Positions 12,079 through 24,217 of a stretch of DNA of 64,000 bases are shown piece after piece. Source of the DNA: Acidobacteriota bacterium. GTDB taxonomy: Bacteria > Acidobacteriota > Terriglobia > UBA7540. Numbering within the stretch: position 1 is the stretch's first letter; the number at the start of each line of letters is the position of its first letter. The position numbers and the translations under genes were made by a program. Where the stretch lies: contig SCRD01000017.1 in the NCBI GenBank assembly GCA_004298155.1, forward strand, positions 186,001 through 250,000. Direction: 5' to 3'. The notes beneath the pieces are model-generated. The model made no database searches. It was given only the letters and a program-made list of their open reading frames with translations, and was not told where the DNA came from.

Positions 12079-12213
12079 TGCCTGGTGATTTTTTCTGTAC
12101 GGCATGTCAACTTACGCCAGTGGCTTGTCAGGATTGTGCGACGGTATATGCAGATTAAGATTGCGGCCGCTGGCCTTTGCTGCCGTACTTTCCAACCGGA
12201 CAGAAGTGGCGAA

Positions 12214-12222
12214 TGCTATAAT
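12214..12222 (+). promoter_or_regulatory. Extended -10 promoter of phoB, leaderless mRNA predicted
   Basis: TGCTATAAT is a perfect extended -10 (TG-N-TATAAT, hexamer 12217-12222). The GTG that best starts phoB is at 12229, seven bases downstream of the hexamer, which is where transcription should begin. No strong -35 is seen. No ribosome binding site precedes the GTG, in agreement with a leaderless transcript. Confidence 0.55.
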
Positions 12223-12228
12223 CCCACC

Positions 12229-12942
12229 GTGCGTCAGCGAATTGCCCTCATCGAAGACGAAAAGGATATTGTCGACCTGGTCCGTTATAACTTTCGGAAG
12301 GAAGGATTTGACATCGAAAGCTTCTCGAGCGGCAGGGACGGACTGGAATACATCCGCAAGAATTCCGTTGACCTGGTCCTCCTGGACATTATGCTGCCCG
12401 ATCTTGACGGCACGGAGATATGCAAGCGCGTGCGGGCGGATGAGCGCCTGAAAGGGCTGCCCATTATTTTCCTGACGGCCAAGGGCGAAGAAATTGACCG
12501 CGTCGTTGGACTGGAACTTGGCGCCGACGATTATGTCGTGAAGCCTTTCAGCCCGCGGGAATTGGTTGCCCGCGCAAAGGCCGTATTGCGCCGTCAGGAG
12601 GCCGCGCTCGGCAAGGCAGAAGTCATTGAGTTACCAGGGTTGCGTCTCGACTCACGGACTCGCGAAGTGACGGTTCGCGGCCGTCCCATTCAGTTAAGCG
12701 CGCTCGAATTCAAATTGCTCCATTTCCTGGCTTCTCAGCCCCGGCGGGTCTTCACCCGCGAGCAGCTGCTTGATAACGTCTGGGGCAGGGACAGGTTTGT
12801 AACTCCCCGCACCGTGGATGTTCACATTCGGCGTCTTCGAGAGAAGATCGAAAAACACGAAGGGTCGCCCCAGTACGTTCAGACCGTGCGGGGCTCCGGA
12901 TACCGATTCTTTCCTGGTGATACCGAATCTCAAGAGGATTGA
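12229..12942 (+). CDS. phoB: Phosphate regulon response regulator PhoB-like
   Basis: 237 aa from GTG 12229, the normal OmpR/PhoB length; longer in-frame starts add 48 residues of non-family sequence. The receiver has the acidic pair Glu9-Asp10, phosphoacceptor Asp53 in LVLLDIMLPDLDG, the Thr of IIFLTAKG, and the Lys of DDYVVKPFSP. The C-terminal winged helix shows the OmpR pattern SALEFKLLHFLASQP and the wing RTVDVHIRRLREKIE. phoR follows after 30 bp. The linked pst genes and PHO boxes make a phosphate role likely. The protein should bind the 11-bp repeats described at 16469, 17289 and 19222. Confidence 0.88.
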   Translation: MRQRIALIEDEKDIVDLVRYNFRKEGFDIESFSSGRDGLEYIRKNSVDLVLLDIMLPDLDGTEICKRVRADERLKGLPIIFLTAKGEEIDRVVGLELGADDYVVKPFSPRELVARAKAVLRRQEAALGKAEVIELPGLRLDSRTREVTVRGRPIQLSALEFKLLHFLASQPRRVFTREQLLDNVWGRDRFVTPRTVDVHIRRLREKIEKHEGSPQYVQTVRGSGYRFFPGDTESQED

Positions 12943-12972: not shown

Positions 12973-14751
12973 ATGGCTTTGACCAGCCCAATATTTCGCA
13001 AGTTACTGATCGGCGCGTTCCTTCTGATCGCAGGAACACTGCTGGGCGTGAACGCTTATCTCACCCGGTTTACCATCCGGCTTCAAACTGAGAACATCCA
13101 TCGCCGCTTGTCGGCGGAAGCGGAGATCCTCTCAGGTGAAGCGGCAACGGTTCCACCGGCGAAGCTGGAAAACTGGTCGCATCAATCCCAGGCCCGTGCG
13201 CTTGCACGTGTGGCGGTCATCGATCCTCATGGGACCGTGCTTGCTGATTCGCAAGAACCTTCGGGCGTGTCTACCAGCCGCGCCGACCTCGCTGAGGTCC
13301 AGAAAGCCCTCCAGGGGACAAGTGGGTTTTCGGTACGCCCCGACCCGGACGTTGATCAAGATCTCTATTACCTGGCAATACCTTTTCGTTACCTAGAGAA
13401 ACCAGGGTATGTGTTGCAATTGGCAGTTCCCCTGACGGATGTCAAGTCAGCAACCGGAGCTTTGCATCATGAAATCTGGGTCGCCTCGCTGGTGGCCCTG
13501 ATTCTTGCGTTGGGTATTGCCTACTTCTTCTCTCAGTCTTTTACTCATCGAGTTAACTCCCTCAAGGTATTCGCTGAGAACCTGGACAAAATGCCGCCCG
13601 CAGGACGATCGCTGGTGTATGGGAACGACGAACTGGGTGGCCTGGCGCGCTCGCTCGACCGGACAGGATCCCGGCTGCGTGAGCTGGTTGACCGTCTTAG
13701 CCTGGAATCTGCGCGACGTGAGAGCATCCTGGCAAGCATGGTGGAAGGCGTGGTAGCCGTGGATAGGGAGCTCAGGATCACATTCTGCAACGGTTCATTC
13801 CGCAGCATGGTTGGGAGGTCTGACTTTATTCCGGAGAACCAGCCTCTGCTGGATGTTTTGCGCGATCCCGAATTACTCCGCATGTTTACGCACGTGCTGG
13901 ATTCCCGCCAGCGCATGAAGCAGCGGGTCCGGCTTGCAGGGGCAGAAGGGCATTCGTTTGAAATCCAAGTGACACCGCTCGCAGGGACAAGTCGAGGCGG
14001 AGCCATCGCGATTTTCTACGACATCACCGACTTGGAGCGGTTGGAGCGTGTCCGGAAGGACTTTGTCGCCAACGTTTCCCACGAACTGCGCACACCCCTG
14101 ACGGCCATCAGCGGTTACGCCGAGACCTTGCTGGAAGGGGCGCTCGAAGACGACGAAAACAACCGGAAATTTGTTGAGATCATCAAGTCCCATGCCACCC
14201 GGCTCAGCAATATCGCCTCAGATCTGCTGGCGCTGTCGGAGCTTGAATCGGAAAAGCCCCCCGCTGAATCGAAAGTGATTTCCGTGCGCGCAGCTGTTGA
14301 TACCGCTCTAAAGATGATTGAGCCGGCAGCCCAAGGCCGCAAGGTCGCCATAATCCGTGGTGAGCTGGACGAAGCCGACGTGCTTGCAGAAAGAGGACGC
14401 CTGGAACAAGCCTTGGTGAACCTGCTCGACAACGCTGTCAAATTCAACCGCTCCGGGGGTGAAGTTCGAGTGGAGATCAGGAGAGATACCAGTAACCATG
14501 TTCGCATCGTAGTGGCAGATACCGGCATTGGCATTCCTTCCACAGACCTGTCGAGGGTCTTCGAACGGTTCTATCGGGTTGATAAAGCGCGATCGCGTGA
14601 AATGGGCGGGACGGGCCTGGGACTTTCCATTGTCAAGCACGCCATTGAACGAATGAACGGCACGGTCAGCGTAGAAAGCCAGATGGGCAAAGGATCGATT
14701 TTCACCATTTTTCTGCCTGTCTGGTCCCACGAATCACAGGAACCCGCATAA
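12973..14751 (+). CDS. phoR: Phosphate sensor histidine kinase PhoR-like
   Basis: 592 aa. Order of parts: membrane helix near residues 10-30, an extracytoplasmic region of about 130 residues, second helix (VASLVALILALGIAYFF), HAMP-like segment, PAS domain (EGVVAVDRELRITFCNGSF), HisKA with phospho-accepting His370 in NVSHELRTPLTAISGYAET, and HATPase with N box LVNLLDNAVKFN, G1 DTGIGI and G2 GGTGLGLSIVKH. A large periplasmic domain is seen in PhoR of many non-enteric bacteria. It lies 30 bp after phoB, so it is co-transcribed. It phosphorylates PhoB and probably acts with PstSCAB and PhoU encoded downstream. Confidence 0.88.
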   Translation: MALTSPIFRKLLIGAFLLIAGTLLGVNAYLTRFTIRLQTENIHRRLSAEAEILSGEAATVPPAKLENWSHQSQARALARVAVIDPHGTVLADSQEPSGVSTSRADLAEVQKALQGTSGFSVRPDPDVDQDLYYLAIPFRYLEKPGYVLQLAVPLTDVKSATGALHHEIWVASLVALILALGIAYFFSQSFTHRVNSLKVFAENLDKMPPAGRSLVYGNDELGGLARSLDRTGSRLRELVDRLSLESARRESILASMVEGVVAVDRELRITFCNGSFRSMVGRSDFIPENQPLLDVLRDPELLRMFTHVLDSRQRMKQRVRLAGAEGHSFEIQVTPLAGTSRGGAIAIFYDITDLERLERVRKDFVANVSHELRTPLTAISGYAETLLEGALEDDENNRKFVEIIKSHATRLSNIASDLLALSELESEKPPAESKVISVRAAVDTALKMIEPAAQGRKVAIIRGELDEADVLAERGRLEQALVNLLDNAVKFNRSGGEVRVEIRRDTSNHVRIVVADTGIGIPSTDLSRVFERFYRVDKARSREMGGTGLGLSIVKHAIERMNGTVSVESQMGKGSIFTIFLPVWSHESQEPA

Positions 14752-14939: not shown

Positions 14940-16214
14940 ATGATGAAACGCCGAACTTTTCTTCGAACAGCAGGACTGGGGAGCGCGGCTGCGGTGGCCG
15001 CGGGAGGAAGTGCCGGCCCAATTCCCGGGGGGGAACCTCCGGCGAGTGCTTCATCCTCATCGTTGCCAGCAAAAAGGTCAGGAATGAAGATCACGCGCAT
15101 TCGTTTTTACCACAATCCTCAATCGCCGCCGGCGTTTAATCAGAGTTTCCATGCAGTGACGGTGGAGACTGACCAGGGGATCACGGGGGTTGGCGAAGGC
15201 GGGTCGCCCGATGCCATCAAACAGTGCGCGGCCATGCTCATCGGCGAAGACCCAGCGCGCATTGAGCACCTCTGGCAGATGATGTTTCGTGGTTATTTCT
15301 ATCCTGCCGGCCGCGAAAAGCTGGACGCCATAGGCGCAATTGACCTGGCCCTCTGGGACATCAAGGGCAAGGCGCTGGGTGTTCCAGTCTACGAGCTACT
15401 CGGTGGGCTTTCGCGCGAGCACGTGGAGTGCTACTCAACTGGTTTTCCCCAACACGGAACGTTAAAAGAAACTGCTCGTGCCTGCGTGGAAGCCGGTTTC
15501 CGCGCCTTCCGTTACGCCACCGCCGACCCGCCAGACGGCCAACCGTTTAACTCTCACCAGGCTGTCCGCAAGACCTACCAGGACTGCGTCGAGATCCGTG
15601 ACGGCGTGGGTCCTGATGGTGACTGGGCGCTTGATTATCACACGCGGCTGGATTTCCCGGATGCGGTGCGGCTCTCTACGTTAATCGAACCGTTGGAGCC
15701 ATATTTTGCGGAGGACCTGGTCCGCTCGGAAGATCCTGGTGTCTATCGCGATTTGCGCGCGCACGTGAAGGTGCCCATCGCGGTAGGCGAGCAATTCGGA
15801 AGCAAGTGGGACGCCCGGTGGCTTATTGAAAACCAGTTGATCGATTACGCGCGAGTGACGCTGCCCAACGTCGGCGGCATCACCGAATATATGAAAATTG
15901 CCGCGCTATGCGATACGCACTATGTCGGGCTCATTCCCCACTTTACGGGCCCGGTTTCAGAAGCTGCGTTGGTCCACTGCTGCGGAGTTTTCCCCGGACC
16001 TGTGATGATGGAGATGCTGGGAAATGGCGTCCACACGTACGACCACCTTCCGCAATTCTATGAGTTTCGAAATGGCAAGCTGTGGCCCAACCGCCGGCCC
16101 GGACTTGGAGTAGAACTCGACACGAAGCCGCTCCAAATGGCGGCCGAGATCACGGAGAGGGCGCGTCCTATTCCTATGTTCCGCCGCCCTGACGGATCAA
16201 TTACAAACTGGTGA
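14940..16214 (+). CDS. Enolase-superfamily sugar acid dehydratase (galactonate-dehydratase-like), Tat signal
   Basis: 424 aa. A Tat signal (MMKRRTFLRTAGLGSAAAVA) is followed by the MR/MLE capping domain and barrel. Likely metal ligands are the Asp of LDYHTRLD, the Glu of YFAEDLVRSED and the Glu of AVGEQFGSKW; the D-x-H and the later His of LIPHFTGP match the galactonate/mannonate dehydratase groups. It would remove water from an aldonic acid to give a 2-keto-3-deoxy acid. An enzyme of this family with an export signal is unusual. It sits between phoR and the Pho-boxed receiver gene without an obvious own PHO box, so its link to phosphate may be incidental. Confidence 0.82.
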   Translation: MMKRRTFLRTAGLGSAAAVAAGGSAGPIPGGEPPASASSSSLPAKRSGMKITRIRFYHNPQSPPAFNQSFHAVTVETDQGITGVGEGGSPDAIKQCAAMLIGEDPARIEHLWQMMFRGYFYPAGREKLDAIGAIDLALWDIKGKALGVPVYELLGGLSREHVECYSTGFPQHGTLKETARACVEAGFRAFRYATADPPDGQPFNSHQAVRKTYQDCVEIRDGVGPDGDWALDYHTRLDFPDAVRLSTLIEPLEPYFAEDLVRSEDPGVYRDLRAHVKVPIAVGEQFGSKWDARWLIENQLIDYARVTLPNVGGITEYMKIAALCDTHYVGLIPHFTGPVSEAALVHCCGVFPGPVMMEMLGNGVHTYDHLPQFYEFRNGKLWPNRRPGLGVELDTKPLQMAAEITERARPIPMFRRPDGSITNW

Positions 16215-16269: not shown

Positions 16270-16468
16270 GGGATTAGCGCATCGAAGGTCCCGTTGCTGC
16301 CTGCCAGGAAGTACGCATGGAGACGCATCTTCCATCGTTTTTGCCGCGCCAATCCCGTCCTTGGACCCCTTTTGGAAATCCTCAAGCTTCAGCGGCTTTC
16401 AATTCTGAGTCCCTGCACGCCTGACGCTTTTGTTTTGGTTCCAGCCTGACTGCGATGCCGGCCGGTAA

Positions 16469-16507
16469 TGTAACCGCACATTCATTAATTTGTCATCAAG
16501 GCTTAAC
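16469..16507 (+). promoter_or_regulatory. PHO box, four hexamers at 11-bp spacing
   Basis: Hexamers start at 16469 (TGTAAC), 16480 (ATTCAT, weak), 16491 (TGTCAT) and 16502 (CTTAAC), that is at exact 11-base steps on one face of the helix. TGTCAT and TGTAAC match the half-site of the PhoB recognition sequence. The site lies 67 bp before the receiver-protein ATG and so should place that gene in the Pho regulon. Confidence 0.6.
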
Positions 16508-16574: not shown

Positions 16575-17018
16575 ATGAAGCCTAAAATCACCGCGTTATT
16601 GGTTCACCACCGAAACGAGCGCTTCTACATTTTGGAGCTGGTTCTCGAGGCGCTTTCCATCAGGGTTATCCGGGCGAGGAGCACACAGGAGGCGGAGAAA
16701 CAACTCTGTGAGAAGCCGTGCCCGCAACTCGTGCTGAGTGACACTGTGCTACCTGATGGCAACTGGATGGACGTGCTGGATGTTGCCGCCAAAGCCATTG
16801 AGCCGGTCAACGTCATCATTGTCTCCGCGATGCCGGACACCAGACTCTACTTGGACACGATGGATCACGGGGCCTTTGACTTTATGACCGACTCTTTCAC
16901 GGTCCCGCAGATTGTTCACATTTTGAAGTGCGCGCTCGACGATATCAGCCGTCGCCGGGGCTCCGGCCTGCGTGTCGCCGCGATTATCCACGAAGAACCA
17001 CGGCGGCTCGCTGTGTAG
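16575..17018 (+). CDS. Stand-alone atypical receiver-domain protein
   Basis: 147 aa from ATG 16575; a GTG at 16530 is an alternative. The fold reads as CheY-like: ITALLVHHRNERFYILELVL, then QLVLSDTVLPDGNW with Asp56 in the phosphoacceptor place, IIVSAMP with Ser84 as the T/S switch, and GAFDFMTDSFTVPQIV. The acidic pair that binds magnesium is replaced by His11-His12, and the conserved Lys of KPF is Asp106. No output domain follows. It is therefore a pseudo-receiver or a protein-interaction module. A PHO box precedes it and a strong terminator follows, so it is a monocistronic Pho gene. The partner is unknown. Confidence 0.72.
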   Translation: MKPKITALLVHHRNERFYILELVLEALSIRVIRARSTQEAEKQLCEKPCPQLVLSDTVLPDGNWMDVLDVAAKAIEPVNVIIVSAMPDTRLYLDTMDHGAFDFMTDSFTVPQIVHILKCALDDISRRRGSGLRVAAIIHEEPRRLAV

Positions 17019-17086: not shown

Positions 17087-17123
17087 GCAGGACCGGAAGA
17101 TGATTACCGGTCCTGCACTTTTT
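17087..17123 (+). terminator. Rho-independent terminator of the receiver gene
   Basis: A perfect 10-bp stem GCAGGACCGG / CCGGTCCTGC encloses a 10-base loop and is followed by ACTTTTT. It lies 69 bp past the stop of the receiver gene and isolates it from the porin gene. A further small stem CAGCC-GTG-GGCTG follows at 17124-17136. Confidence 0.85.
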
Positions 17124-17288: not shown

Positions 17289-17327
17289 TGTCACCGAAAT
17301 GTAACGGAACTGTAATTTCGTGTTCAC
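17289..17327 (+). promoter_or_regulatory. PHO box of the porin gene
   Basis: Hexamers TGTCAC (17289), TGTAAC (17300) and TGTAAT (17311) are spaced by 11 bases, with a weaker GTTCAC at 17322 in phase. This is the clearest match to the PhoB half-site in the window apart from that of pstS. It lies about 105-140 bp upstream of the porin start; a -10 would fall near 17338-17345 (AATACTAT). Confidence 0.7.
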
Positions 17328-17431: not shown

Positions 17432-19126
17432 ATGTATCGAAAAGTGACCAAGTTGTGGCTGCGTGTGAGTGTTCCCCTCCTCGCGGCCTGCCTGTCCGGC
17501 GCGGTTATCACACAAGCAGCTGAAAAACCCGCCCAACCTGGAGATGTCTCTGAGGTTCCCGCGAAACGCATTAAGCATGGCCAACATGCGAAATCGAAAG
17601 AGCGGGGCCACATGGTTGTGAAGGCAGGTCAGAAAGAGCAGGCTGGCTCGGCGGATGAGATCGCCCAATTGAAGAAGCAGCTTGTGCTCCAGCAGGAACA
17701 GATTACACAGCTTCTGCAGGCAATGAATAAGTTGCAGGAGCAGGTTGCAGCCACAGCCAATCCCTCAAAAGACATTTCGATTCCTCAATCCTCGGGCAAT
17801 GCCGTGGCCTCGGCAACCCACGCTGCTCCGCAATTCCCGTCAGCCGGGGAGGTGGCGAGCCTGAGCCCGGTAATTCCCGGCGACTCAGTTGCAGTTGAGA
17901 GCGGATCGGCCTCTAAGCTGGCTTCACGCATTCTTCCATCTGCCTCGAACGCCCCGCAGCCTGTGCCGGCTCAAGCAGAGAAGCATGAAAAGCTGGGGCC
18001 CATCGCCACGCAGGATATCAAGCTCGGCACTACTTTCTACGGCTCATTCTCGCACTACGGCGATACTGGCTACGCCCCGGCGTTTCAAGACTCGCCCACG
18101 ACACAGCTGGGACCGGGAAACAGTGGGCTCAACACCTTCGAGGTGAACCGGGCCTACATCAACTTTTACTACACACCGAACGAGCACGTGACCTTGCGCA
18201 TTACGCCCGACATCTATCGTCAAAGCGATAACAGTTATGCATTCCGGCTGAAGTATGCATACGTTGACTTCCAAAAGATCTTTGGCAAAGGCGCCTTCAA
18301 GGATGACAAGATCACCTTCGGTCAGACGACGGAACCTCTTGTTGACTGGGAAGAGGCACTCAGCGGCTACCGATACACATATCTCGTGCCGTGGAACTAC
18401 CTGAGCTTGAGCTCTACCTACTCCGGTGCCAGGCTCCGCGGCCCAATCGAATTCAATGGAAAGGAGTATTTGGACTACGATTTAGGAGTCTTCAATACTG
18501 CCAGCTTCCACTCGCTCGAAACGAACGACAAAAAGCAAGTCATGGGCCGGCTGACCGTCTACCCGTTCGGCACAACCGTGGACCGCACGGGCCTGGGATT
18601 CACTGCCTTTGAAGACTACGGCTACAACACAAAGCTTCCCTCACAGGTAAGCACGCCCCTCAACCGGTTATCGCTGCTGGCGCACTATCAGAGCCACGAC
18701 AAGGCCTACCAGATCGCCTTCGAGTATCAGCTCGGGCGCAACGCGACAAGCACGGGCAACATGTTCTCCGGCGTCGGGCCGGCGGCAGGGAGCCTCTTCA
18801 GCACCCTGGCGGGAACCGCCCTCGCTGGAACTCACACGCGGCAGCAAGGCTTTAACGTCTTCGGCCACGCGCGCCTGGGCCACTCGCCATTCTCACTTTG
18901 GGGCTTCTATCAGAACTTCCAGCCGAACACGAACTTCCAGCCGTCTTCGGTCGGCCTGACGGACAACCCGCTGGATTTCCGGCGCACCGTTGGTGGCATC
19001 GCCTACAAAGTCACTGATCACTTCGACGTTGCATTCGGCGACCAAAACTTCCACTGGGTCCATCCCCAAGGGCGGACAGGCCCGGACACGAACGGGATTG
19101 TTGTCTGGACGCAGTTCAATTACTAG
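17432..19126 (+). CDS. OprP/OprO-like phosphate porin with periplasmic coiled coil
   Basis: 564 aa outer-membrane protein. The signal peptide ends around ACLSGAVITQAAE. Residues about 75-110 form a coiled coil (DEIAQLKKQLVLQQEQITQLL), then a low-complexity Ala/Ser/Pro linker to about 185, then a beta-barrel rich in alternating aromatic strands (FEVNRAYINFYYTPNEHVTLRI). The chain ends WTQFNY, with the terminal aromatic residue expected for insertion by the BAM machinery. The barrel resembles phosphate-selective porins O and P. A PHO box upstream and pstS downstream (168 bp) agree with phosphate uptake across the outer membrane. The coiled coil may trimerise or anchor the protein to peptidoglycan. 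Confidence 0.78.
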   Translation: MYRKVTKLWLRVSVPLLAACLSGAVITQAAEKPAQPGDVSEVPAKRIKHGQHAKSKERGHMVVKAGQKEQAGSADEIAQLKKQLVLQQEQITQLLQAMNKLQEQVAATANPSKDISIPQSSGNAVASATHAAPQFPSAGEVASLSPVIPGDSVAVESGSASKLASRILPSASNAPQPVPAQAEKHEKLGPIATQDIKLGTTFYGSFSHYGDTGYAPAFQDSPTTQLGPGNSGLNTFEVNRAYINFYYTPNEHVTLRITPDIYRQSDNSYAFRLKYAYVDFQKIFGKGAFKDDKITFGQTTEPLVDWEEALSGYRYTYLVPWNYLSLSSTYSGARLRGPIEFNGKEYLDYDLGVFNTASFHSLETNDKKQVMGRLTVYPFGTTVDRTGLGFTAFEDYGYNTKLPSQVSTPLNRLSLLAHYQSHDKAYQIAFEYQLGRNATSTGNMFSGVGPAAGSLFSTLAGTALAGTHTRQQGFNVFGHARLGHSPFSLWGFYQNFQPNTNFQPSSVGLTDNPLDFRRTVGGIAYKVTDHFDVAFGDQNFHWVHPQGRTGPDTNGIVVWTQFNY

Positions 19127-19221: not shown

Positions 19222-19260
19222 CTTAACAAACTTGTAACGCATCCTTAACATTCCTGTAAC
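19222..19260 (+). promoter_or_regulatory. PHO box of pstS, four perfect half-sites
   Basis: CTTAAC (19222), TGTAAC (19233), CTTAAC (19244) and TGTAAC (19255) alternate at exact 11-base spacing. The array ends 34 bp before the pstS ATG. This gives the consensus for the local PhoB half-site and supports the two weaker arrays upstream. Confidence 0.82.
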
Positions 19261-19294: not shown

Positions 19295-20356
19295 ATGAAA
19301 ATCAGACTCAGAGGTACAATCGCAGCCTTGGTTGTGACGCTGGCACTGGTGGGATTGTTCGCAGCTTGCAGCCAGCAGGAATCAGGTTCCGGCTCCGCGT
19401 CCGGCGCCATTACTTTGAATGCCGCGGGCGCTACATTTCCTTATCCGATATACTCCAAATGGTTTAGCGAATACCAAAAGATTCATCCAAATATCGCCAT
19501 CAACTACCAGTCCATTGGTTCAGGGGGCGGTATCCGGCAACTCCATGCAGGCACGGTTGATTTCGGGGCCTCGGATATGCCGCTCAAAGATGACATGCTC
19601 AAGCAACTTAATCTGCAGATTGTGCAGTTCCCCACGGTGCTTGGAGCGGTTGTGCCTAGCTATAACATCCCTGGCGTTGAAGTACCACTGAAGTTTACAG
19701 CGGCATCCCTGGCGGGCATTTATCTTGGCAAGATCACCAAGTGGAACGCGCCGGAAATTCGAAAGAACAATCCCGGAGTGGAGCTTCCTGCCAAGGACAT
19801 CACTGTAGTCCACCGATCCGATGGCAGCGGCACCACCTTTGTGTGGACTGATTACCTTTCGAAAGTCAGCCCGGAGTGGAAGTCGAAAGTGGGCAGCAAC
19901 ACCTCTGTTCAGTGGCCAGTGGGCCTGGGCGGCAAAGGCAATGAAGGTGTGGCTGGCGTCGTCAAGCAGACGCCTTATTCCATTGGTTATGTGGAGCTGA
20001 TCTATGCGCTCCAAAACAAGATGTCCTATGGCCTGGTCCAGAATTCCTCAGGGAATTTCGTCAAGGCCAGCCTGGAAACCGCCAAGGAAGCAGCCGCCGA
20101 CGCTGCGGGTGAAATGCAGAATGACGTCCGAGTCTCGATCACCGATCCGCCGGGCAAGGATGCTTATCCGATCTGCAGCTTCACCTATTTGCTGATCCCA
20201 GTACACATTGCGGACGCAGCCAAACGGGACGCGATCAAGGACTTCCTGCATTGGATGCTGACTGACGGCCAGGGCATGGTGGAAAGCCTTGATTACGGCC
20301 AGTTGCCTGATCTAGTGAAGCAGATCAATACAGAGCACATTTCGCAAATCAGTTGA
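19295..20356 (+). CDS. pstS: Phosphate ABC transporter, substrate-binding lipoprotein PstS
   Basis: 353 aa. A lipoprotein signal is seen (ALVVTLALVGLFAAC, lipobox FAAC with Cys at about residue 28). The mature protein starts with the PstS hallmark LNAAGATFPYPIYSKWF, then NYQSIGSGGGIRQ and DFGASDMPL, and HRSDGSGTTFVWTDYL, all phosphate-contacting loops. It binds periplasmic phosphate and delivers it to PstC/PstA. AAAGGG at 19281 is the ribosome site. The PHO box directly upstream shows phosphate control. pstC starts 489 bp later, which is a wider gap than usual. Confidence 0.95.
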   Translation: MKIRLRGTIAALVVTLALVGLFAACSQQESGSGSASGAITLNAAGATFPYPIYSKWFSEYQKIHPNIAINYQSIGSGGGIRQLHAGTVDFGASDMPLKDDMLKQLNLQIVQFPTVLGAVVPSYNIPGVEVPLKFTAASLAGIYLGKITKWNAPEIRKNNPGVELPAKDITVVHRSDGSGTTFVWTDYLSKVSPEWKSKVGSNTSVQWPVGLGGKGNEGVAGVVKQTPYSIGYVELIYALQNKMSYGLVQNSSGNFVKASLETAKEAAADAAGEMQNDVRVSITDPPGKDAYPICSFTYLLIPVHIADAAKRDAIKDFLHWMLTDGQGMVESLDYGQLPDLVKQINTEHISQIS

Positions 20357-20845: not shown

Positions 20846-21847
20846 ATGGCAACGACATCTGCTCCCGATGAAACCCCAATCCCTTCCCGGTACAGAACGC
20901 CCAAGCGCGGTTTAAGCTCCTTCCTTCAGCGCCTTCGCAGCGGAGATGAGATAGCCCATCTGATCACACTGGCCTTTGCGGCGAGCATTGTTCTGATCAC
21001 GCTCCTGCTGGTTTACCAATTGTGGACCCATTCGGTGCTACCGCGGCAGCGTTTCGGATGGCGCTTTCTGGTGACGAGTACTTGGGACCCCGTTTTTGAG
21101 AATTTCGGGGCTCTGCCGTTTATCTTCGGAACGCTGGTTACGTCAGTAGTAAGTCTGCTGCTAGCCTTGCCCCTGGGAGTCGGCGCAGCGATTTTTCTTG
21201 CAGAGCTTGCCCCACCACGAATTTCGCATGCGCTGGCGTTCGTGGTGGAACTTCTGGCCGCCGTGCCCAGCGTGATCCTTGGGTTGCTGGGCATCTTTTT
21301 GTTGGTGCCGTTTCTCCGGACAGAAGTCCAACCCTTCCTTAAAGCCGCGTTTGGCTTTCTGCCCTTCTTCCAGGGCCAGATGTACGGAATCGGGATGCTT
21401 GCCGCGAGTGTGATCCTGACCATCATGATCATTCCGTTTATCATTTCGATCTCGAGGGAAGTTTTGCTGGCTGTGCCTGTTGACCAGCGCGAGGCAGCCC
21501 TGGCTTTAGGGGCAACCCGCTGGGAGGCGACCTGGAAAGTGGTTGTGCCCTACGCGAAGACGGGAATCTATGGATCAATTTTCCTGGCGCTGGCCCGGGC
21601 CCTGGGCGAAACAATGGCTGTGACCATGGTGATTGGAAACGATCCAAGAATCAGCGCTTCTCTGTTTGCGCCCGGCTATACCATTGCGGCCGTCATTGCC
21701 AACGAGTTTACGGAAGCAACGGGAAATCTTTATCTCCAGTCCCTGATTGAACTCGGACTGGTGCTTTTCCTCGTGACAATCATTATCAATGCCCTGGCAC
21801 GCGTGCTGATTGTGGTGACCACAAGACAAGGGACCGCACACCCATGA
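20846..21847 (+). CDS. pstC: Phosphate ABC transporter permease PstC
   Basis: 333 aa inner-membrane permease. After a basic cytoplasmic tail of about 45 residues there are six to seven hydrophobic helices. Family landmarks are FGALPFIFGTLVTSVVSLLL, LPLGVGAAIFLAELAP, and the EAA loop that contacts PstB (DQREAALALGATRWEATWKV). It ends with a 4-base ATGA overlap with pstA, so translation is coupled. It forms the channel with PstA. Confidence 0.93.
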   Translation: MATTSAPDETPIPSRYRTPKRGLSSFLQRLRSGDEIAHLITLAFAASIVLITLLLVYQLWTHSVLPRQRFGWRFLVTSTWDPVFENFGALPFIFGTLVTSVVSLLLALPLGVGAAIFLAELAPPRISHALAFVVELLAAVPSVILGLLGIFLLVPFLRTEVQPFLKAAFGFLPFFQGQMYGIGMLAASVILTIMIIPFIISISREVLLAVPVDQREAALALGATRWEATWKVVVPYAKTGIYGSIFLALARALGETMAVTMVIGNDPRISASLFAPGYTIAAVIANEFTEATGNLYLQSLIELGLVLFLVTIIINALARVLIVVTTRQGTAHP

Positions 21848-22695
21848 ACCGCCTTCTTGCGTGGAGAAAATTCGTCAACGCCTTCATGCTTACGCTGACT
21901 GGCCTGTGTGCCCTGCTGTCGGTTTCCGTTCTGCTGATTGTTCTGGCGTATCTTGGTTGGAACGGATGGCAATATTTAACCTGGACTTTTCTCACCCACC
22001 TGCCTGCGCCAGTTGGCGAAACAGGCGGCGGGATGGCGAACGCCATTGTCGGCAGCGGGAAACTGCTCTTGATCGCGGCTGTAACGGGCATTCCCACTGG
22101 GTTACTGGGCGGAATTTACCTGGCCGAGTTCGGCGGCAAGACTTTTGCGTTTCTGGTTCGATATACGGCGGACCTTTTGAACGGCGTTCCTTCTATAGTG
22201 ATGGGTATTTTCGCATACACAGTAGTCGTCCTGCCGATGCGCCACTTTTCCGCGCTTGCCGGCGGTTTGGCTTTGGGAGTCATGCTGATTCCTATCGTGT
22301 TGCGCAGCACGGAGGATTTCCTGAGAGCCGTCCCCAATCCGCTGCGCGAAGGCGCGCTGGCGCTAGGCGCGAGCAAATGGAAGGCCATCGCCACAGTTGT
22401 GGTTCCTGCGTCGATTCGTGCCATTGCCACTGGCGCCCTGCTGGGACTGGCCCGCGTGGCAGGAGAGACCGCACCACTGCTGTTTACGAGTTTCAATAAC
22501 CAGTTTTGGAGCAAAGGGCTGAACCAGCCCACAGCGTCGCTTCCCGTCATGATATACGAATACGCCATCTCGCCCTATACCGACTGGCACCGCCAGGCGT
22601 GGGCGGCCGGCTTCATCTTGCTCATGCTGGTGCTTATTGCTAACATTGGGGCACGGCTGATTTTGTCCCGAAAGGGCCCAGCCCTGCGCGGATAA
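21844..22695 (+). CDS. pstA: Phosphate ABC transporter permease PstA
   Basis: 283 aa with six membrane helices. Landmarks are [45 protein letters not shown], and the EAA loop [18 protein letters not shown], which docks on PstB. It overlaps pstC by four bases and ends four bases before pstB. Length is normal for the family. Confidence 0.93.
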
Positions 22696-22699
22696 TGCT

Positions 22700-23536
22700 A
22701 TGGGAAACGTGACGGACCCGGAGGTGATCATCGGAGTGCCGGGATACGAACGGCCGCTTGAGGACTCTGAGAAAGAGGCCCGTGAATCCGTGCCGAAGAT
22801 TTCCGTCAACCTGTTGAATTTCTATTACGGCCCACGGCAGGTTCTTTTTGACGTCAGCCTCCAGATAATTGAGGGAAAGATTACGGCCCTCATCGGGCCA
22901 TCCGGCTGCGGGAAGTCAACCTTTCTGCGGACCCTCAACCGAATGTACGAAACGGTCCGTGGCACCCGCGCCGTTGGTGAGATCCTGCTCGACGGCCAGA
23001 ACATTTTTGATATGGACGTCGTCAGTCTCAGGCGGCGCGTCGGCATGGTGTTTCAGAAGTCAAACCCGTTCCCCAAGTCAATTTTTGAGAATGTTGCCTA
23101 TGGTCTAAGGGTGAACGGAACGGTTCGCCGGTCGCAAGTTACCGAAGTTGTAGAGAAAAGCCTGAGGCGTGCCGCCCTGTGGGACGAAGTGAAAGACCAT
23201 CTCCACAAGTCTGCTTACGCGCTCTCGGGCGGACAGCAACAACGGCTGTGCATTGCGCGCGCCCTGGCAATCGACCCGGAGGTTCTGCTGTTGGATGAGC
23301 CGTGCTCGGCACTCGATCCCATCGCGACTGCAAAGATTGAGGACTTGCTGTTCGCTCTCATGGGGAGCTGCACGATTGTAATTGTTACGCACAACATGCA
23401 GCAGGCCGCACGGGTGGCGGATCAGACGGGGTTCTTTCTGCTAGGCAGGCTCATCGAGTTTAACAAGACAGAAGTCATTTTCAAGAATCCTGCGCAGAAA
23501 GAGACTGAAGATTACATTACCGGCCGGTTCGGCTAA
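22700..23536 (+). CDS. pstB: Phosphate ABC transporter ATP-binding protein PstB
   Basis: 278 aa. Walker A is GPSGCGKST, the Q loop [13 protein letters not shown] (a PstB-specific pattern), signature LSGGQQQR, Walker [15 protein letters not shown], and switch His in IVTHNMQQA. About 30 residues precede the ABC core ([16 protein letters not shown]). ATP hydrolysis drives phosphate import through PstCA. The gene is packed between pstA and phoU. Confidence 0.95.
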
Positions 23537-23554: not shown

Positions 23555-24217
23555 TTGCGCCATTTTGAAATTCAACTCGACGAATTGCGGAAGAAGCTGC
23601 TTGAGATGAGCGGTCTGGTTGAGTCGTCCATCTACCGCAGTGTTCTCGCCCTGGTGGAAAAGGACGAAGAACAGATCCGGCAGGTTATGGAAAATGAAGT
23701 TCGCGTTAATCGGATGCAAATCGAGATTGATGATCTGGCCACCGGACTGCTGGCGTTGCAGCAGCCCATGGCCACCGACCTGCGCTTTATTACCTCCTCG
23801 ATCAAGATCAACAGCGACCTCGAACGGATGGGCGATCATGCCGTCAATATCGCCGAGCGCGCAAGTTCGCTAATGCATGAACCGACTATCAAGCCATTAA
23901 TCGATTTGCCTCAGATGGCCAATCTGGTGCAGTCCATGCTGCGTGAGAGCCTCGATGCTTTTATCAAGAGGGATGCGAGCCTGGCGCGCGCTGTGCTGAA
24001 GTCCGACGACGCGGTTGACCAGATTCGGGACACGGTTTACGACGAGCTTGTGCACTACATGGAGGCGGAACCCTCTGCCATCCGCGGATGTATCCACCTG
24101 ATGTTTGTTGCCCGCAACCTCGAGCGCATTGCCGACCACGCTACCAACATTGCTGAAGACGTCGTGTTCCTGGTCGAGGGCGCCGACGTTCGCCACCATG
24201 CCGAAGCTTTTAAGTAG
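23555..24217 (+). CDS. phoU: Phosphate signalling protein PhoU
   Basis: 220 aa all-helical protein with the two PhoU repeats. Each has the metal-binding type motif: DLRFITSSIKINSDLERMGDH in the first and FVARNLERIADHATNIAEDV in the second. It starts at TTG 23555, eight bases after GGAGGGGGA (23538-23546). PhoU links the Pst transporter to PhoR and represses the regulon when phosphate is plentiful. It is last in the pst operon. Confidence 0.92.
   Translation: MRHFEIQLDELRKKLLEMSGLVESSIYRSVLALVEKDEEQIRQVMENEVRVNRMQIEIDDLATGLLALQQPMATDLRFITSSIKINSDLERMGDHAVNIAERASSLMHEPTIKPLIDLPQMANLVQSMLRESLDAFIKRDASLARAVLKSDDAVDQIRDTVYDELVHYMEAEPSAIRGCIHLMFVARNLERIADHATNIAEDVVFLVEGADVRHHAEAFK

Follow-up and report, generated by a model that had tools for sequence, protein, structure and literature searches.

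A stand-alone pseudo-receiver with its own PHO box in an acidobacterial phosphate island is probably a feedback part of phosphate sensing

The window, a stretch of 64,000 nucleotides (G000:C17:186001-250000) from a 5.2-Mb genome assembly of an Acidobacteriota bacterium, carries a phosphate island. A preliminary description made from the sequence had placed a small receiver-like gene in the middle of this island. Indeed, phoB and phoR lie on one side of the gene, and a porin gene, pstS, pstCAB and phoU on the other. The features are as follows.

12085..12942, plus strand: PhoB response regulator, with acidic pair, Asp, Thr and Lys intact; the real start is probably near 12229
12973..14751, plus strand: PhoR/PnpS-type sensor kinase with PAS, HisKA and HATPase domains
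14940-16214: enolase-superfamily (galactonate-dehydratase-like) gene, between phoR and the pseudo-receiver gene
16469..16507, plus strand: PHO box of the pseudo-receiver gene, four half-sites in 11-bp steps, 106 to 68 bases before the start codon
16575..17018, plus strand: stand-alone pseudo-receiver, 147 aa, with H11-H12 for the acidic pair, D56, W64 for Gly, S84, F103, and D106 for Lys
17087..17123, plus strand: intrinsic terminator with a perfect 10-bp stem, a 10-nt loop and a T-rich tail
17289..17316, plus strand: perfect PHO box of the porin gene
17432..19126, plus strand: presumed porin-like outer-membrane protein, with no Pfam match
19233..19260, plus strand: PHO box of pstS
19295..20356, plus strand: PstS
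20846..23536, plus strand: PstC, PstA and PstB, named from gene order and sequence rather than from a profile search, and conserved in related pst loci
23555..24217, plus strand: PhoU

The enolase-superfamily gene separates phoR from the pseudo-receiver gene in the window's genus and was not seen there in other genera. At two related loci (L099 and L100, in G002:C142 and G014:C24), pstB and phoU are 78-93% identical to those of the window, but the identity is only about 40% for the pstS, pstC and pstA beside them; part of the pst operon has likely been replaced there.

The 147-residue protein has a single profile match, to Pfam Response_reg (PF00072; 33.8 bits against a cut-off of 30.2), so that no output (DNA-binding) domain is found by Pfam, and no NCBIfam model scored above its own cut-off. 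AlphaFold gave a confident (beta-alpha)5 fold (pLDDT 89.7, pTM 0.82), in which the last helix is long, residues 110-137, with an uncertain end, and no ordered domain follows residue 137. By profile match and fold, the protein belongs to the PF00072 receiver superfamily. The nearest solved structures returned by Foldseek were receivers, many of the OmpR/PhoB group, PhoB included (PDB 1zes, also 2jb9; TM-score 0.7-0.9). The likeness to the PhoB receiver is one of fold; the pseudo-receiver differs in having no output domain, acidic pair or Lys, and in carrying Trp for Gly at Asp+8. The 2jb9 structure is a constitutively active PhoB, D10A/D53E, whose acidic loss and Asp-to-Glu change recall those orthologues of the pseudo-receiver that have Glu56.

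The residues first read from the sequence (H11-H12, D56, S84 and D106), the open reading frame and its coordinates proved correct, and F103 was also identified. The start at 16575 is backed by the orthologue alignment, in which M1 is invariant (11/11). An in-frame ATG at 16455, the beginning of a long ORF, was rejected as the start on account of this alignment and of its position upstream of the PHO box. Three marks of a phosphorylatable receiver are missing: the acidic pair, the Lys, and a phosphoacceptor Asp conserved across orthologues. As a receiver by profile that lacks the phosphotransfer residues, the protein fits the definition of a pseudo-receiver (PsR; PMC12632262). It falls outside the subset of aspartate-less receivers (ALR), since D56 is present, though replaced in some orthologues.

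We surveyed the active site in 92 members of the family, 17 of them phosphate-linked and 75 others. Homologues with a full acidic pair had been named at the outset as evidence against a special role for the protein; none of the 92 has one, and the pair-bearing proteins nearby are ordinary receivers outside the family only. The beta-5 Lys is also absent from all 92, with Pro mostly in its place. His occupies the first acidic position in 50/92, and position 56 is Asp in 56 members, Glu in 22 and another residue in the rest. Trp stands at Asp+8 in 89/92, where PhoB and neighbouring ordinary receivers have Gly. The window protein does have the His11-His12 pair to which attention had been drawn, but the pair is not conserved: only the closest orthologue shares it, and elsewhere these positions are non-acidic or mixed. 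The 17 directly linked orthologues have Asp (11), Glu (5) or Asn (1) at position 56. When two islands on cut contigs are counted as well, Asp56 is kept in 11/19, with Glu or Asn in the other 8, and Ser84 is kept in 10/19. The early judgement that magnesium-dependent phosphorylation is unlikely gains further support from the replacement of Asp56 in these orthologues, besides the family-wide loss of the acidic pair and Lys. Because of those replacements, Asp phosphorylation, as judged from the residues, cannot be a mechanism common to the phosphate-linked group.

The PHO box ascribed to the gene was also borne out. It reads TGTAAC-N5-ATTCAT-N5-TGTCAT-N5-CTTAAC, and its best three half-sites score 16/18, a score that none of 100 shuffles equalled. 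The 5.2-Mb genome has two matches to the pattern TGTMAY-N5-NTTMAY-N5-TGTMAY, one before the pseudo-receiver gene and one before pstS, and a reversed-pattern control gave no match in the whole genome. The island holds one more site, the perfect box of the porin gene. The box of the pseudo-receiver gene is kept as an aligned block in G001, G002 and G014, at equal distance in the latter two. Using a weight matrix trained on the pstS and porin boxes only, we found a box before the pseudo-receiver gene at an empirical p of ≤0.011 in 9/18 islands, all in the forward direction; the remaining islands had a weaker score or no box within 400 bases. There was no convincing PHO box among 15 paralogues tested outside phosphate islands.

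The perfect terminator was recovered as well. It is formed by GCAGGACCGG, a 10-nt loop and CCGGTCCTGC, followed by ACTTTTT. The hairpin (17087-17116) was found by direct folding, at -21 kcal/mol (z -5.3); its loop lies beyond a scan restricted to loops of 3-8. The terminator of the sister species G002, GCAGGGCCGG...CCGGCCCTGC-ATTTTT, is kept through a compensatory A-U to G-C change. Since the gene has both its own PHO box and its own terminator, it is predicted to be a one-gene unit of the Pho regulon.

We searched for homologues in 61 and then 250 genomes; the named relatives are draft MAGs. Among the 250 genomes, the family is concentrated in the window's taxonomic family, many members of which have several copies per genome; the class as a whole also contains weaker relatives. 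Outside Acidobacteriota, a scan of named genomes turned up no close relative, and its other matches, for the most part about 25-40% identical over a portion of the domain, reflect general receiver similarity. These stand-alone pseudo-receivers form a family without a name in one acidobacterial family. A copy lies inside a phosphate island in 17 genomes. Two more, G034 and G062, have cut contigs that share the island's flanking genes, bringing the total to 19 genomes of nine genera. The link with phosphate genes, whose lack elsewhere would have counted against a role in phosphate signalling, is therefore conserved. Where an island copy has phoR and/or pstS on its contig, it has the same orientation as they do. 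In several genera the gene is directly downstream of phoR, and in most related islands a porin homologue adjoins it; in genus g3 it lies by the porin gene and pstS and not by phoR. In a tree, the phosphate-linked copies fall into a few well-supported groups. Strict monophyly of these genes is absent from the best tree and is not rejected (p 0.12), and neither is one phosphate-locus clade that includes two dispersed duplicates (AU p 0.41).

Six visible islands have no pseudo-receiver gene (G001, G003, G007, G012, G015 and G025). G001, which belongs to the same genus as the window, is a natural deletion: about 60 bases of the gene start are left, the start codon is broken, and a deletion of about 700 bases joins the PHO box of the pseudo-receiver to the porin gene (L081:7757-8261). 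The copy in G006 has an internal stop. Between G000 and G002, dN is 0.065 and dS is 1.5, a dN/dS of about 0.04. The gene is under purifying selection; it is also dispensable, because it is lost in its sister genome G001 and missing from other islands.

Outside the islands, the neighbours of the family are mostly not PhoR-like kinases, and PhoR- or PhoB-like genes are rare. The view that family members are anti-kinases, each beside its own kinase, is unsupported for this reason. Based on Pfam tallies and similarity, on which all neighbour classes rest, 123 flanking proteins include 11 sigma-54 activators with PAS/GAF sensors, 11 Crp-type regulators and 7 proteins with sigma-70 domains; about 15 full-length sigma-54 activator domains exist in the whole window genome. 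In about a dozen genomes, on diverse branches of the tree, a sigma-54 activator, a pseudo-receiver and a Crp-type regulator follow one another in this order on the same strand. Judging by these tallies, by the recurrent order and by a fusion to a Crp-type helix-turn-helix, the family keeps company with transcription regulators. The PAS/GAF sigma-54 activator, pseudo-receiver and Crp order is found at L101:6613-10927 (G000:C28), L104, L237, L256, L115, L117, L248, L028, L257 and other loci; near such a locus in the genome of the window there is a cytochrome bd subunit gene. The fusion, at L267:2368-3402 on the minus strand (G002:C82), is one open frame of 344 aa. At L103:6600-9807 (G000:C1), L105 and L120, a paralogue has an RpoD-like sigma factor gene on one side and, on the other, a stand-alone receiver with the acidic pair and Lys; this arrangement was found in all three genomes of the genus.

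What does the phosphate-linked copy do? Because it keeps its place in at least nine related genera and has a phosphate-starvation box in its promoter, we reasoned that the pseudo-receiver is probably a feedback part of phosphate sensing, so far unrecognised. More specifically, the PhoB-induced protein may feed back on PhoR-PhoB through protein contact, most likely by braking PhoR, a reading to which we give a probability of about 0.4. Upon phosphate starvation, PhoB would turn on the gene from its PHO-boxed promoter as a one-gene transcript. Since the catalytic residues are lost across the family, the protein would act without Asp phosphorylation, and its amount would be the signal. It would dock on the PhoR transmitter and damp kinase activity, as FixT does on FixL and Osp on CckA. 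As it accumulates and damps PhoR, the kinase would be restrained again while the starvation response builds. We infer both PhoR as the target and the feedback role; the place in the island, the PHO box, the dead phosphosite, selection, the receiver fold and the precedent of FixT and Osp suggest them.

FixT and Osp are single-domain receivers without an acidic pair that are induced by their own pathway and act on its kinase, lowering autophosphorylation (PMC7078487, PMC9430884). The pseudo-receiver shares the single domain and the missing pair, and its strong PHO box suggests that it may likewise be controlled by the regulator of its own pathway. FixT of Sinorhizobium meliloti and Caulobacter crescentus is induced by its own system's regulator (PMC7078487), and the S. 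meliloti gene adjoins its two-component genes: on pSymA, where the record has no annotation, the ORF that we took as fixT by its position and its similarity to FixJ is directly beside fixJ. The similarity amounts to 24% identity over 67 aa, alpha-1 included (E 5e-5). We found no homology of the pseudo-receiver to FixT, with nothing from BLASTP and an hhalign probability of 1.5%. Furthermore, the S. meliloti protein differs from the pseudo-receiver in having kept the Lys (TKPF) and in its detectable relationship to FixJ. C. crescentus FixT, unlike the pseudo-receiver, binds an Fe-S cluster through a 4-Cys motif (PMC7078487). Anti-kinase action has been shown for FixT; for the pseudo-receiver it is what we propose. 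Osp of Rhodobacter sphaeroides retains the Asp but neither the acidic pair nor the Lys of beta-5, and is presumably monocistronic (PMC9430884). It is activated by CtrA, the regulator it restrains, and a non-phosphorylatable Osp mutant works (PMC9430884). However, Osp belongs to the alphaproteobacterial CckA-ChpT-CtrA system, and the likeness drawn here is one of description.

Several observations speak against a brake on PhoR. We looked for mimicry of PhoB at alpha-1, the kinase-docking helix, and at the alpha4-beta5-alpha5 dimer surface, and found none; there is no sign of it because identity to PhoB is 10-12% in alpha-1 versus 17-18% over the whole domain. This lack of likeness at the docking helix, together with the lack of FixT homology and the paralogues beside transcription factors, speaks against a simple copy of FixT. 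The g3 copy away from phoR and the islands without the gene, G001 among them, also count against the brake. The protein may instead partner a transcription factor, PhoB or another DNA-bound regulator, as a detached, non-phosphorylated receiver-like subunit that changes the output of Pho promoters. We regard this as a serious rival, if a tentative one, because paralogues lie beside sigma-54 activators and Crp regulators and one is naturally fused to a Crp helix-turn-helix. The recurrent gene order in about a dozen genomes favours it, as do the sigma-70 neighbours and the share of flanks taken by sigma-54 activators and Crp-type proteins (11/123 each), against only about 15 sigma-54 activator domains in the window genome. 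Yet the PhoB dimer surface is not mimicked, no Crp or sigma-54 gene adjoins the phosphate copy, the fusion was seen only once, and the flanking loci, being orthologous in part, are not independent.

The PHO box in itself shows membership of the regulon only, and the protein could be a Pho-regulon output whose target lies elsewhere than in the PhoR-PhoB loop, such as another sensor, Pst/PhoU or cell physiology during starvation. The g3 copy, with the porin gene and pstS and without phoR, would fit such a role, but adjacency to phoR in several genera does not, nor does the lack of any other conserved adjoining partner besides the porin gene and pstS; we hold this unlikely. That the protein is still phosphorylated, with Asp56 taking phosphate through an unusual metal site of His11, His12, Asp56 and Asp106, is very improbable. 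The window protein does keep Asp56 and Ser84, and two His with carboxylates could bind a transition metal. But beyond the window protein the HH pair survives in the closest orthologue alone, residue 106 can be D, E, H, A or P, and in several orthologues Asp56 becomes Glu or Asn and Ser becomes Ala; we rejected the site, which is not conserved across the family. Finally, the gene might be a remnant of paralogue expansion, decaying or selfish, that plays no part in phosphate signalling, which would fit the losses in G001 and other islands and the internal stop in G006. The low dN/dS, the conserved promoter and terminator, and a position kept over nine genera make this hardly credible.

Pseudo-receivers and single-domain feedback inhibitors are already known as kinds. 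CmrT and other pseudo-receiver response regulators are encoded with a normal sensor kinase and regulator and are under their control (PMC12632262), as we propose here, but CmrT, as a response regulator, has an output domain, which the pseudo-receiver lacks. Our literature searches returned no report of such a protein in a Pho system. The family, its copy numbers, its Trp/Pro signature and its member in the Pho regulon were not found in the family libraries or literature searched. A 2025 review calls the activation and inactivation of pseudo-receivers a mystery (PMC12632262). The present case offers a pathway that can be named, a readable promoter, a natural deletion in G001 and a simple assay, Pho output.

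Should the feedback reading be true, a major group of soil bacteria would have a further component, of the receiver type, in PhoR-PhoB, which is among the best known of all two-component systems. A broader idea, which we put forward with considerable doubt, is that non-phosphorylated receivers have multiplied in this acidobacterial family, to several copies per genome, into a whole family that is as yet undescribed, and that they may serve as dedicated partners of different regulators: PhoR-PhoB, a sigma-54 activator together with a Crp-type factor, and a sigma-70 factor. The amount of the partner would be the signal. If so, no receiver-like feedback brake would have been known in phosphate sensing before the Pho copy.
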